Positions 3,898-59,893 of a stretch of DNA of 64,000 bases are shown one piece after another. The notes under the pieces were generated by a model that worked only from the letters and a program-made list of their open reading frames with translations, was not told where the DNA came from and did no database searches. The position numbers and the translations under genes were made by a program. Source of the DNA: Fusobacterium perfoetens ATCC 29250 (lineage in GTDB: Bacteria; Fusobacteriota; Fusobacteriia; Fusobacteriales; Fusobacteriaceae); NCBI RefSeq assembly GCF_000622245.1, contig NZ_JHXW01000004.1, positions 62,001-126,000 on the forward strand. The letters run 5' to 3'. Each line of letters opens with the position of its first letter. Positions within the stretch are counted from its first letter, which is position 1.

Positions 3898-3967
3898 AAA
3901 TCTTCTTATAAAATTTTCCTCTTAAATAACTTAATAGTACAAAGCCTCTTTATGAGGAAATAATTTT

Positions 3968-4053
3968 ACTTCCTTTCGCCAGCATTATCTGGTTCAAGTA
4001 ATAAGAGTCGAGGTCGAACCTCCTCTCAGCCTTTTTGGCTCCCCTAGTAAGCT
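3968..4053 (-). promoter_or_regulatory. TPP (THI-box) riboswitch aptamer
   Basis: The - strand carries the THI-box core: GGGGAGCC, GGCTGAGAGGAGG, then CTTGAACCAGATAATGCTGG and CGAAAGGAAGT. Helix P1 is closed by TTACT pairing with AGTAA. It stands directly upstream of thiS and is known to bind thiamine pyrophosphate and switch off transcription. The TTACTAGGG strand of P1 can alternatively pair over nine positions with the terminator 5' arm, giving an obvious antiterminator. Confidence 0.95.
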
Positions 4054-4076
4054 ATCTATTTAATTTTTTCAAAAGT

Positions 4077-7077: not shown

Positions 7078-7097
7078 ACACAAAATAAAAAATATCC

Positions 7098-7220
7098 ATC
7101 AAGAGAAACTGAGGGACTGGCCCTATGATGTTTCAGCAACCTACTTTAGAGTGTGGTGCTAATTCCATGTAGATGGTTTAGATTAATAATCTATTCCTTA
7201 TATCTCTAAATTTTCTTGAT
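7098..7220 (+). promoter_or_regulatory. SAM-I (S-box) riboswitch aptamer
   Basis: The S-box core is clear: AAGAGAAACTGAGGGACTGG, then CCCTATGA, CAGCAACC and the GGTGCTAATTCC segment. Helix P1 is ATCAAGA (7098-7104) with TCTTGAT (7214-7220). S-boxes bind S-adenosylmethionine and shut off methionine synthesis or uptake genes. This one directly precedes the MetQ-type gene. Confidence 0.95.
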
Positions 7221-17416: not shown

Positions 17417-17452
17417 AAAAAGAGGATATTATAAAACAATATCCTCTTTTTT
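17417..17452. terminator. bidirectional terminator between the membrane protein and rnpB
   Basis: AAAAGAGGATATT (17417-17429) pairs with AATATCCTCTTTT (17438-17450), with a T run on the + strand and an A run before it. It serves both the + strand gene and the rnpB transcript on the - strand. Confidence 0.85.
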
Positions 17453-17457
17453 ATTTA

Positions 17458-17781
17458 GGCATTACGTAAGCCGGGTTTTGTATCAGTTAATTATTTATCT
17501 AGACTTACAATTACTTATAAGTTCAAGCAACTTACCATGAAAGTGGACGAGCAGCCCTTAACCTTTCTTTCTTAGTCTTGCTCCAGAGGGGGTTTACAAA
17601 ACATTTTCAGTTCCCTAAAAATTTGGTAGTCTCTTACACTGCCTTTTCACCCTTACCATTTCTGGCGGTTTGTTTTCTGTTGCACTTTCCTTAGAATTAC
17701 TTCCAATAGCCGTTAGCTATCCTCTTGCTCTATGGAGCCCGGACTTTCCTCTTGAATAATCAAGCAATTAACTGTAATACC
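17458..17781 (-). ncRNA. rnpB: RNase P RNA (bacterial class A)
   Basis: This is the catalytic RNA that matures tRNA 5' ends. On the - strand the 5' part has the universal GAGGAAAGTCCGGGCTCC, the middle has ACAGAAAACAAACCGCC, AAGGGTGAAAAGGC and AGAGACTACC, and the 3' part has ACAAAACCCGGCTTACG. The ends are set by helix P1: GGTATTAC (17774-17781) pairs with GTAATGCC (17458-17465). The length is about 324 nt; the true 5' end could be a few bases further out. Confidence 0.95.
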
Positions 17782-17792
17782 TACAGTTTTTT

Positions 17793-56284: not shown

Positions 56285-57988
56285 CTACTTAGTTGAATTA
56301 GTATTTTTTTTAAGGTCAATTAAAACTTTTGTTCCTTCTACAACTAACATAAAAGCAAGAATAAAGATAAAGAAAATTACAACTGATTGTAATCCATGTA
56401 CTGCTAGTTTTCCTTGACCTGAAATTAATAATACTATATTAGTTTTAAATGAAATTAATAAAGAACTCATAGTAGCACAAATCATAAATATCATAGGAAT
56501 AAATAACATCTTATTATTTTTTCCTGTTTTAGCAAGCCATACAGATACTCCTAAGAAACATGGTACAGCAACTAATTGATTACATGCTCCAAATATAGGC
56601 CAAATATTTTTATATCCTCCAAGACATAATACTCCACCTAAAAATACTGTAATGATTGTAGCTACATACATATTACTAAACGATTTTTTAATTCCTACAT
56701 TTTCTTCTGGGTTTTTAGAAGTAAATAACTCTTGAAATAAAAATCTTCCTAATCTTGTAGCTGTATCTAGTGAAGTTAAAGCAAAAGCTGAGAAAGCTAG
56801 AGAAATTACTGTAAATGTAGTTCTAACAGCTATATCATTAAATCCCATTGCTCCAAAAAATCCTGAAACCCCTGTAGCAAATACAACAGCTGGTGACCCA
56901 TTTGGCATTTGACCATCTTTAAATAAAACTCCTACTGTAATTAAAGCAATAACAGCTAATACACATTCTATTAACATAGAACCATATCCAATCATTTTAG
57001 CGTCTTTTTCATTATCTAATTGTTTTGAAGTTGTTCCAGAACCAATTAATGAGTGGAATCCTGAAATAGCTCCACAAGCTACTGTAATAAATAGATATGG
57101 GAATACAAATTGTCCATTAAAACTATTTTTTAGTCCTGTAAAACTTGGTAAATTAATTGTTGGATTTGTAAATACAACTCCAATAAAAGCAGCTAAAATC
57201 ATGAAATATAATAAGAAACTATTTAGATAATCTCTTGGTTGTAATAAAATCCATACAGGAGTAACTGAAGCAATAATAATATAGATAAATACAAATCCTA
57301 ACCAGAAATTTTTACTTAAATAGATAGGAAATTTTAATCCTAAATATATACATAGTATTAAAAGAGCTACTCCAACAACTGAAGAAATAACAAGTGGAGC
57401 ATTTTTTCTATATACTAAGAATCCAAAAGCTATAGCTAGTGGAATAAATAATACAGAAGCTGTAGCTACTGAACCATTAGCTTGAATATATGTTTTTGTT
57501 CCATCAGCTGCTACTGTATATCCTTGGAAAGTACTAGCCACAATATCAGCAAAAGCAGCTATAACTAATAAAATTACTAACCAAGCAAATGTTGTAAATA
57601 ATACCTTACATTTATGTCCAATATATTCTTCAATAACTTCTCCTAAAGTTTTTCCACCATGTTTTATAGAAACAACAATAGATGAAAAGTCTTGAACTCC
57701 TCCAAAGAAAATTCCTCCAATAACAATCCATAAAAATACTGGAATCCATCCAAAAACTGCTGCTTGAATTGGTCCTGTTATTGGTCCTGCCCCAGCAATA
57801 GAAGCAAAGTGATGTCCTAAAAGAATAGGAGCTTTAGCTGGTACATAATCTACTCCATCTTCCATTGTATGAGCTGGTGTTACTTGTTTTGGGTCTACTC
57901 CCCATTGTTTTGCTAACCATGAACCATATGTTACATAGGCTATTAAAAATAAAATAATAGCTACTGATAAAATTAATAAACTACTCAT
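56285..57988 (-). CDS. cstA: carbon starvation protein CstA (peptide/pyruvate permease family)
   Basis: The 567 residues form about 16 membrane helices. Motifs are APILLGHHFASIAGAGPITG near 50-70, GGVQDFSSIVVSIKHGGKTL, and GFHSLIGSGTTSKQ near 318. CstA-family proteins take up peptides or pyruvate in nutrient stress. It ends the ilvE-unknown-cstA operon and lies 22 bases after the unknown gene, so it is under the same leader control as ilvE. Short relatives (about 480-560) are normal for anaerobes. Confidence 0.95.
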   Translation of the reverse strand: MSSLLILSVAIILFLIAYVTYGSWLAKQWGVDPKQVTPAHTMEDGVDYVPAKAPILLGHHFASIAGAGPITGPIQAAVFGWIPVFLWIVIGGIFFGGVQDFSSIVVSIKHGGKTLGEVIEEYIGHKCKVLFTTFAWLVILLVIAAFADIVASTFQGYTVAADGTKTYIQANGSVATASVLFIPLAIAFGFLVYRKNAPLVISSVVGVALLILCIYLGLKFPIYLSKNFWLGFVFIYIIIASVTPVWILLQPRDYLNSFLLYFMILAAFIGVVFTNPTINLPSFTGLKNSFNGQFVFPYLFITVACGAISGFHSLIGSGTTSKQLDNEKDAKMIGYGSMLIECVLAVIALITVGVLFKDGQMPNGSPAVVFATGVSGFFGAMGFNDIAVRTTFTVISLAFSAFALTSLDTATRLGRFLFQELFTSKNPEENVGIKKSFSNMYVATIITVFLGGVLCLGGYKNIWPIFGACNQLVAVPCFLGVSVWLAKTGKNNKMLFIPMIFMICATMSSLLISFKTNIVLLISGQGKLAVHGLQSVVIFFIFILAFMLVVEGTKVLIDLKKNTNSTK

Positions 57989-58010: not shown

Positions 58011-58535
58011 TCAATTTTTTAAATTTTTTTCAAATACATTTATAATTTCTTTAGAAGGTTTATTATAATAGATTTTATTTTCTTTTAAATCTATTCCTAT
58101 AAATCTAGTTGTTAAAAAACCTCTTATAGAAAATAAATATGTCTTTTCAAACTTAAATTTTTCTATTTTCTTTTTTATATTTTCAGAAATTTTATTTGAA
58201 GATATAAAAACTATTGATATATAACTTGTCATATGATTTTTAGGAGGATATTTTTCTCCCTTTCTTACATAATCTTTTTCAATCTTGTTTTTTATTAAAA
58301 GTTCCATATTGTCTATATCTTTTTCACTAAGTTTATTAACTTCTAAGAAAAAGATATATTCAAAATTATTAACTTCCCAAAGATTTACTTCTTTTACTAA
58401 TATATATTTTTCAGCCTTGGAATTAAAATATCCATAGGCTGAAAAATTATACTCATCAATTTTTATATTTTCTTCTATATCAAAACAACTTTTATATACT
58501 TCCAATAAATTATTTAAATACTCTTTTGATTCCAT
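58011..58535 (-). CDS. protein of unknown function between ilvE and cstA
   Basis: I do not recognise this 174-residue protein. It has no signal peptide or membrane helix. It is charged, with an apparent beta-rich core (YFNSKAEKYILVKEVNLWEV, NFEYIFFLEVNKL) and a conserved-looking GFLTTRFIGIDLKENKIYYN near 140-160. Nine bases separate it from ilvE and 22 from cstA, so it is made with both. It might regulate or assist the CstA permease, but nothing in the sequence proves that. Confidence 0.7.
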   Translation of the reverse strand: MESKEYLNNLLEVYKSCFDIEENIKIDEYNFSAYGYFNSKAEKYILVKEVNLWEVNNFEYIFFLEVNKLSEKDIDNMELLIKNKIEKDYVRKGEKYPPKNHMTSYISIVFISSNKISENIKKKIEKFKFEKTYLFSIRGFLTTRFIGIDLKENKIYYNKPSKEIINVFEKNLKN

Positions 58536-58544
58536 ATACCTCTC

Positions 58545-59609
58545 TTATTTAACTTCTCTTGTCCAATTTTTTGTATCTTCTAGTTTACCCCATTGAATAC
58601 CTGTTAGAGTATCATATAATCTTTGAGTTAAAGCTCCTGTTTTAAAATCATTAATAACAGCAGTTTCTCCTCTATAGAATAATTCTCCTACTGGAGATAT
58701 TACAGCTGCAGTTCCTGTTCCAAAAGCTTCTTGAAGTTTTCCATTTCTTGCTGCTTCCATTAAGAAATCAATAGTGAAATGTTCTTCATGTACTTTATAT
58801 CCCCAATCTTTTAAAAGTTGAATACAAGAATCTCTTGTTACCCCTGGAAGAACTGTTCCATCAATAGGTGAAGTATAAACTTCTCCATCAACTAAAAACA
58901 TAACATTCATTGTTCCAACTTCCTCTACATATTTACGCTCAGCTCCATCTAACCAAAGAACTTGTGTATATCCCTTTTGTTGAGCATTGTATTGAGCTAG
59001 GATACTAGCTGCATAGTTTCCTCCACATTTTGTAAATCCTGTTCCACCTTTACAAGCACGAACTAATTCTTCTTCAACATAAATTTTTACAGGACTAACT
59101 CCTTCTGGATAATAATTTCCTACAGGAGATAAAATTATAGCAAATAGATAATTACTTGCTGGGTGAACTCCTACTGTAGCTTCTGTTGAAAACATAAATG
59201 GACGAATATATAGAGAAGTTCCCTCTGCTGATGGTATCCATTCTTTTTCATATTCAACTAATTTTTCTATAGCTTCAACAAACATATCTTCTGGAAACTC
59301 TGGCATACAAAGTCTTTCACAAGATTTTTGCATTCTTCTAGCATTCATTTCAGGACGGAATAATAAAACTTTTCCCTCTTTTGTTCTATAAGCTTTTAAT
59401 CCCTCAAATACCTCTTGAGCATAATGTAAAACAAATGAAGCTGGACTTAAAGATAATGGTCCATAAGGAACTATTCTTGCATCATGCCATCCTTTTTCTT
59501 TTGAATAATCCATTAAAAACATGTGGTCAGTAAAATATTTTCCAAATCCTAATTTGTTTTGGTCTGGTTTCTCCTTTAACTCTTTAACTCTTTCAACTCT
59601 GATTTCCAT
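58545..59609 (-). CDS. ilvE: branched-chain amino-acid aminotransferase
   Basis: IlvE moves the amino group between branched-chain amino acids and 2-oxoglutarate, used in biosynthesis or in amino-acid fermentation. The 354-residue type has AQEVFEGLKAYR near 65-76, the PLP-lysine region GTGFTKCGGNYAAS near 193, and EVGTMNVMF with the C-terminal GTGTAAVISPVG. No ilvBC or leu gene adjoins it, which leans toward catabolic or exchange use. A leader ORF and terminator precede it (59636-59893). Confidence 0.95.
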   Translation of the reverse strand: MEIRVERVKELKEKPDQNKLGFGKYFTDHMFLMDYSKEKGWHDARIVPYGPLSLSPASFVLHYAQEVFEGLKAYRTKEGKVLLFRPEMNARRMQKSCERLCMPEFPEDMFVEAIEKLVEYEKEWIPSAEGTSLYIRPFMFSTEATVGVHPASNYLFAIILSPVGNYYPEGVSPVKIYVEEELVRACKGGTGFTKCGGNYAASILAQYNAQQKGYTQVLWLDGAERKYVEEVGTMNVMFLVDGEVYTSPIDGTVLPGVTRDSCIQLLKDWGYKVHEEHFTIDFLMEAARNGKLQEAFGTGTAAVISPVGELFYRGETAVINDFKTGALTQRLYDTLTGIQWGKLEDTKNWTREVK

Positions 59610-59635
59610 AAAACTTTCCTCCTTGTAATGTCTAT

Positions 59636-59664
59636 AAAAAAAACAGCCTTGGCCAAGGCTGTTT
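59636..59664 (-). terminator. attenuator-type terminator in the ilvE leader
   Basis: AAACAGCCTT-GGCC-AAGGCTGTTT (59641-59664) is a perfect hairpin followed by T8 on the - strand. It ends 27 bases before the ilvE start codon and lies downstream of the leader ORF, so it must be bypassed for ilvE to be expressed. Confidence 0.85.
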
Positions 59665-59724
59665 TAATATTTTTTACTTAATTTTTTATATAAAATTTAT
59701 TATTTTATCCCTAGTAAAAAATGG

Positions 59725-59835
59725 TTACACCAAACAACTCTTAGCATTTATTTTTTGTACGTCAAAACTTCTGATATTCATAAATATCAGATTTATTATA
59801 CTTATGACAAATATTATGCTAAGTAGTTTAAACAT
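59725..59835 (-). CDS. ilvE leader peptide (putative attenuation peptide)
   Basis: AAGGAGG precedes an ATG at 59835 that opens a 36-codon ORF ending TAA at 59725. It starts MFKLLSIIFVISIINLIFMN and ends KINAKSCLV. Nine Ile, five Leu and three Val codons, several adjacent (LL, II, VI, II, LI), make it resemble enterobacterial IlvL/IlvB leader peptides. It sits between a good promoter and the ilvE terminator. Ribosome stalling at these codons when branched-chain aminoacyl-tRNAs are short could let polymerase pass the terminator. Alternatively it is a small membrane peptide. No codon evidence beyond composition is available. Confidence 0.6.
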   Translation of the reverse strand: MFKLLSIIFVISIINLIFMNIRSFDVQKINAKSCLV

Positions 59836-59864
59836 ATAACCCTCCTTAAAGTTTTCTTGCGTAA

Positions 59865-59893
59865 AGTATAAAACATTCTTTTAAAAAAATCAA
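59865..59893 (-). promoter_or_regulatory. promoter of the ilvE leader
   Basis: On the - strand TTGATT (59888-59893) and TATACT (59865-59870) are separated by 17 bases. Transcription would start near 59858, about 250 bases before the ilvE start codon, leaving room for the leader ORF and terminator. Confidence 0.75.

Follow-up and report, generated by a model that had tools for sequence, protein, structure and literature searches.

In Escherichia coli and its relatives, the ilvGMEDA, ilvBN and leuABCD operons carry leader-peptide attenuators. Leader-peptide attenuators are also described for ilvBNC of Corynebacterium (PMC11857589, PMC10272879), and a leucine-rich attenuator peptide for Staphylococcus aureus (PMC5794164). 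An earlier survey, from 2010, knew leader-peptide attenuation only from Proteobacteria, Actinobacteria and the histidine leaders of bacilli that the survey itself contributed (PMC2965389). Our search of the open-access literature finds no report of leader-peptide attenuation in Fusobacterium or the Fusobacteriota. Here we analyze the region in front of ilvE within a stretch of 64,000 nucleotides from Fusobacterium perfoetens ATCC 29250 (the window), and its sequence indicates that this leader very probably functions as a ribosome-mediated transcription attenuator.

The Shine-Dalgarno sequence AAGGAGG and the 36-codon ORF with adjacent Leu, Ile and Val codons that an earlier note on this DNA described before ilvE are both present (59847-59841 and 59835-59725, with the stop codon at 59727-59725; Table 1). 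This short ORF with its ribosome-binding site lies upstream of a biosynthetic operon and is predicted to be translated. Its codons 4-11 read Leu-Leu-Ser-Ile-Ile-Phe-Val-Ile and 10 of codons 4-17 specify Leu, Ile or Val, a run that corresponds to the amino acids of the regulated pathway; Ile codons dominate among the three candidate sensed amino acids. Between the ORF and the first structural gene stands an intrinsic terminator, whose hairpin (59665-59640) comprises 11 bp (4 G-C) and a 4-nt loop, with a T-run at 59643-59636. It begins 59 nt past the leader stop codon and ends 30 nt ahead of the ilvE start (59609). Terminator-like sites exceed chance (2 found, one hairpin being counted on both strands, versus 0.3 expected), and the terminator claimed directly before ilvE is present (59665-59636). 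Among the 49 genes of the window, ilvE alone is preceded by an Ile/Leu/Val-rich ORF with a Shine-Dalgarno sequence and a terminator outside a coding gene. The promoter claim stands only in part: the match to TTGATT-17-TATACT exists (59893-59865), but a consensus scan finds such matches in this AT-rich DNA at the chance rate (7 versus 6.5 expected).

Table 1. Features of the ilvE leader and its operon, in window coordinates.
Feature	Position	Strand	Remarks
Leader region		-	between sfsA and ilvE
Promoter-like TTGATT-17-TATACT	59865..59893	-	consensus scan; chance-level frequency; position suits a short 5' leader
Shine-Dalgarno AAGGAGG of leader ORF	59841..59847	-	
Leader peptide ORF MFKLLSIIFVISIINLIFMNIRSFDVQKINAKSCLV, 36 codons	59725..59835	-	homologous leaders precede ilvE/livJ in other species
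Conserved core CTTAGCATAATATTTGTCATA (Leu Ser Ile Ile Phe Val Ile), control codons	59803..59823	-	same before ilvE and livJ elsewhere; codon bias
Strand 1	59816..59828	-	pairs with 59747-59736, 12 bp; dG -15.0, p 0.020 (window)
Strand 2 GCUAAGAGUUGUUU, near ORF 3' end	59732..59745	-	alternative partners: strands 1 and 3
Spacer hairpin, nested between strands 2 and 3	59669..59722	-	59722-59713 with 59678-59669; inner 59708-59702 with 59696-59690
Strand 3 AAACAGCCUUGGC, terminator 5' arm and loop	59652..59664	-	joins strand 2 in the antiterminator
Intrinsic terminator (attenuator), strands 3:4 and T-run	59636..59665	-	hairpin -13.0 kcal/mol
ilvE, branched-chain aminotransferase (ilvE_II), first regulated gene	58545..59609	-	TIGR01123, 415.8 bits (cut-off 250)
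Gene for a 174-aa protein, second in operon	58011..58535	-	no family match
cstA-family transporter, third in operon	56285..57988	-	PF02554, 521 bits

Folding of the 254-nt leader, a check proposed in the earlier note, gives z = -4.9 relative to dinucleotide shuffles, none of 200 being as good. Strand 1 contains the Leu-Leu-Ser-Ile codons and forms with its partner, strand 2, a protector hairpin over the control codons. Strand 2 can pair instead with strand 3 through 6 + 7 pairs and one bulged base, at -15.5 kcal/mol and p 0.003 to 0.007 versus dinucleotide shuffles of the leader. This pairing of 59745-59732 with 59664-59652 overturns the statement that no clear antiterminator is visible. The hairpin previously seen between ORF and terminator is real; in predicted structure B2 it sits within the loop closed by strands 2:3 and shortens that loop.

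These elements suggest the following mechanism, in which aminoacyl-tRNA supply would control ilvE. With charged branched-chain tRNAs in ample supply, the ribosome would reach the stop codon (59725) and mask strand 2, which ends 4 nt before the stop codon, so that a ribosome positioned there would cover part of it; alternatively, strands 1:2 would re-pair after ribosome release. With strand 2 masked or paired in this way, terminator 3:4 would form and transcription would end before ilvE. When charged tRNAs are scarce, the ribosome would stall at the Leu-Ile-Val codons, over strand 1, leaving strand 2 free to pair with strand 3 once made, with the nested hairpin drawing both together. Pairing of 2:3 would then block the terminator and permit transcription of ilvE, the 174-aa gene and cstA. 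The operon is thus probably switched on when branched-chain amino acids are scarce; we infer promoter use, leader translation, stalling and the identity of the signal. In predicted folds of the free RNA, the terminator forms with P = 0.99. If a ribosome is instead placed in the stalled position at codon 10-11 and the transcript reaches only as far as strand 3, the antiterminator has the lowest predicted energy. Adding strand 4 is predicted to return the advantage to the terminator at equilibrium, even with the ribosome stalled (P = 0.88); the switch must therefore be kinetic, as it is in the E. coli trp attenuator.

To determine how widely this arrangement is kept, we located ilvE, livJ and ilvD orthologues in 61 Fusobacteriaceae genomes and read their upstream DNA. 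An Ile/Leu/Val-rich ORF with a Shine-Dalgarno sequence followed by a terminator occurs in 53 of the 96 upstream regions. The conservation expected by the earlier note holds throughout the ilvE orthologues of at least 72% identity, 14 of 14 of which have both the leader ORF and the terminator. The same pair stands before some 20 genes of the livJ family, spread over 16 species, as well as before ilvD (in several genera), leuA, brnQ (in genomes G001, G004 and G005), oligopeptide-transporter and M20-peptidase genes; example leaders are MFRLLSIIFVIRIILLIS (ilvE), MNLKTISIIGLILSIIIIIVQIKI (ilvD) and MNKFKNLFTIIIIICFWVWI (ilvD of another genus). Targeted searches of the F. perfoetens genome itself reveal leaders before ilvE, livJ (MFILNIIGLVICAVILIQVNM), an ABC-ilvC-ilvD-ilvB operon (MTLMQNTIIISIISIIIISIIIKK) and leuA, the last with a terminator 22 nt ahead of the gene. 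A model that scores sequence only (R1, built from a MAFFT alignment of 29 leaders) detects additional copies at oligopeptide-transporter genes, an M20 peptidase and, in G004, the 174-aa gene homolog with cstA. A DNA pattern scan of the whole collection returns one relative only, a Fusobacterium MAG. As a negative control, hisG upstream regions lack both a terminator and a His-rich leader, with the reservation that hisG may lie inside an operon. Separately, at locus L078 (G001 C5) an Ile/Leu/Val leader and terminator are followed by a very short ORF and then by a regulator gene and an operon for a 2-oxoacid:ferredoxin oxidoreductase.

The MAFFT alignment of the 29 leaders yields no consensus pairs in RNAalifold because it aligned start codons rather than strand 1; pairing was therefore tested leader by leader against shuffles. 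Among 31 representative leaders (one or few per genus and gene), the antiterminator reaches p < 0.05 in 17 and p < 0.1 in 22, for a combined p of about 3e-20 that overstates the independence of related leaders. Several leaders, among them the ilvE group of G031-G034, fall short of significance individually. In most leaders the first base of strand 2 lies at +73 to +99, counted from the ATG. The 2:3 partners comprise unrelated complementary sequences, namely GUUAGG:CCUAAC, AUUAGGC:GCCUAAU, CGUUGGCU:AGCCGACA, GGUUAGCUA:UAGCUAAC, AAACAAGAU:AUCUUGUUU and CCAUUGGAUUU:AGAUUCAAUGG, for which, judging by these comparisons, descent alone cannot be a sufficient explanation. The antiterminator, which occupies the terminator 5' arm and excludes the terminator, is thus kept by compensatory change. 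The 1:2 hairpin, assessed in 50 leaders, has a combined p of 4e-18, likewise overstating independence among related leaders; the signal is carried by the ilvE/livJ types, and most ilvD leaders are non-significant.

The amino acid of the codon run tracks the target gene, Leu before leuA and Ile, Val and Leu before ilv and liv genes. The leuA leaders contain the Leu runs MILTNILSINLLLLLLLLLLPLGCKQ, MKTLLLLLALLLLIKRNN and MIISYTISISLLLSLLLVLLLVLNQQ, and the Ile:Leu count is 332:172 in ilv/liv leaders versus 24:98 in the leuA leaders of other genera (odds ratio 7.9, p 1e-20, the relatedness of the leaders again overstating independence). Ile accounts for 30% of leader codons, with AUA making up 77% of Ile codons versus 51% in the window's genes; GUC (GTC) supplies 51% of leader Val codons versus 1.7%, and AGC 36% of leader Ser codons versus 2.3%. 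The enrichment of rare Val, Leu and Ser codons is due in part to strand 1 pairing and common descent. The leaders of two second livJ paralogues (L104, L105) are Leu-rich rather than Ile-rich and may mark leucine-specific uptake.

The first 18 residues of the ORF are hydrophobic and would form a membrane segment, so the ORF could instead encode a functional small membrane protein with its own terminator, ilvE being expressed by read-through or from another promoter. We consider this very unlikely. Leader peptides range from about 20 to 54 codons and their C-terminal parts vary freely, the amino-acid run becomes Leu before leuA, the antiterminators covary, and the 30 nt between terminator and ilvE leave scant space for a second promoter. 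Moreover, the strand 2 motif GUUAGG falls in different reading frames, giving Tyr-Val-Arg (YVR) in livJ leaders and spanning Met-Leu-Gly (FMLG) in ilvE leaders, indicating that RNA pairing and not the peptide is conserved at strand 2. The comparison that the earlier note named as its own refutation, a membrane peptide kept in place of the codons, thus finds Ile/Leu/Val codons and RNA pairing kept while tails and lengths differ. An arrest peptide that senses a small molecule, with stalling caused by the nascent LSIIFVI core and not by codon supply, would agree with the presence of an identical core in the ilvE and livJ leaders of several species. The conserved nucleotides, however, fall on strand 1, which accounts for their conservation, and leaders lacking the core carry IIIIICFW or LLLLLLLLLL at the equivalent place, making this reading highly improbable.

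The strong structure of the leader would also suit a metabolite- or tRNA-binding RNA that drives the terminator, the ORF being incidental. In an Rfam scan of the leader, run at the gathering score and with E relaxed to 10, no family clears its cut-off and neither a riboswitch nor a T-box emerges; the lack of an RF00230 match bears out the absence of a T-box core stated earlier. A T-box exceeds the cut-off in one of the seven genus genomes searched (L162; G004 C2:400391-400662) and not in that of F. perfoetens, and the ilvE/livJ and ilvD/leuA leaders share no common sequence, only Ile/Leu/Val codons and pairing logic. We therefore give a binding RNA hardly any credence. The best weak Rfam leader match, Phe_leader (RF01859), resembles the locus in an A-rich stretch followed by a terminator; at 25.2 bits against a cut-off of 55, and with no Phe-rich leader, the match is at chance level. 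Elsewhere the window encodes an ordinary TPP riboswitch (3954-4055), SAM riboswitch (7093-7179) and RNase P RNA (17452-17783). At the sequence level, the ORF, its Shine-Dalgarno sequence, the codon bias, the terminator and the antiterminator are established together with their conservation, and the codon run matches the target gene, lending good support to the earlier reading of a leader-peptide attenuator.

The attenuator would govern three genes, since gaps of 9 nt (ilvE to the 174-aa gene) and 22 nt (174-aa gene to cstA) suggest co-transcription. The 174-aa protein has no match in Pfam or NCBIfam, and a PDB fold search with its predicted structure (pLDDT 78.7) returns no usable match (best E 0.025). 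Its gene is kept between ilvE and cstA, and in G004 (L209) it pairs with cstA, without ilvE, behind an Ile/Leu/Val leader and terminator of its own. The leaders thereby provide a functional lead for this protein.

A further, improbable link between leaders would involve brnQ, the divergent neighbor of livJ in F. perfoetens, whose terminator has an arm (AACCUAAU) complementary to strand 2 of the livJ leader (GUUAGGUU). This terminator (GGCAACCTAATTTATATAAGGCTGCC; L161:11700-11860, C3) directly follows a promoter-like site, and brnQ here has neither a leader ORF nor a strand 2 of its own, whereas its relatives in the three genomes named above have the Ile/Leu/Val leader. The brnQ terminator may be a decayed member of the leader family or a target in trans. 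That the terminated leader RNAs from one operon regulate other operons in trans seems very improbable to us; if they did, cross-pairing among leaders would couple the branched-chain amino-acid operons.

Taken together, the leaders point to a branched-chain amino-acid regulon in the Fusobacteriaceae that relies on leader-peptide attenuators, and in this genus T-boxes are nearly absent. A single signal would thereby govern genes of biosynthesis (ilv, leu, ilvE) and of uptake (liv, brnQ, opp-like, cstA) together with a peptidase, and the difference between Ile and Leu among leaders yields predictions directly testable by reporter assay. T-box riboswitches (RF00230) resemble this device in responding to tRNA charging at a terminator, but the Fusobacterium leader is ORF-based. 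The leaders of Corynebacterium ilvBNC and S. aureus, as described, similarly place ilv/leu operons under branched-chain codons outside the Proteobacteria; they belong to other phyla, and the likeness is drawn from those descriptions. With the ilvGMEDA, ilvBN and leuABCD attenuators of E. coli the locus shares an Ile/Leu/Val- or Leu-rich peptide, alternative 1:2, 2:3 and 3:4 pairings and a T-run terminator, a likeness of features across phyla. In contrast to the E. coli attenuators, the Fusobacteriaceae device also precedes the transporter genes livJ, brnQ, opp-like and cstA, and several operons share one set of sequence-related leaders (model R1). The mechanism itself is already known; what is notable is how far it extends in the Fusobacteriaceae, across genes of both biosynthesis and uptake.
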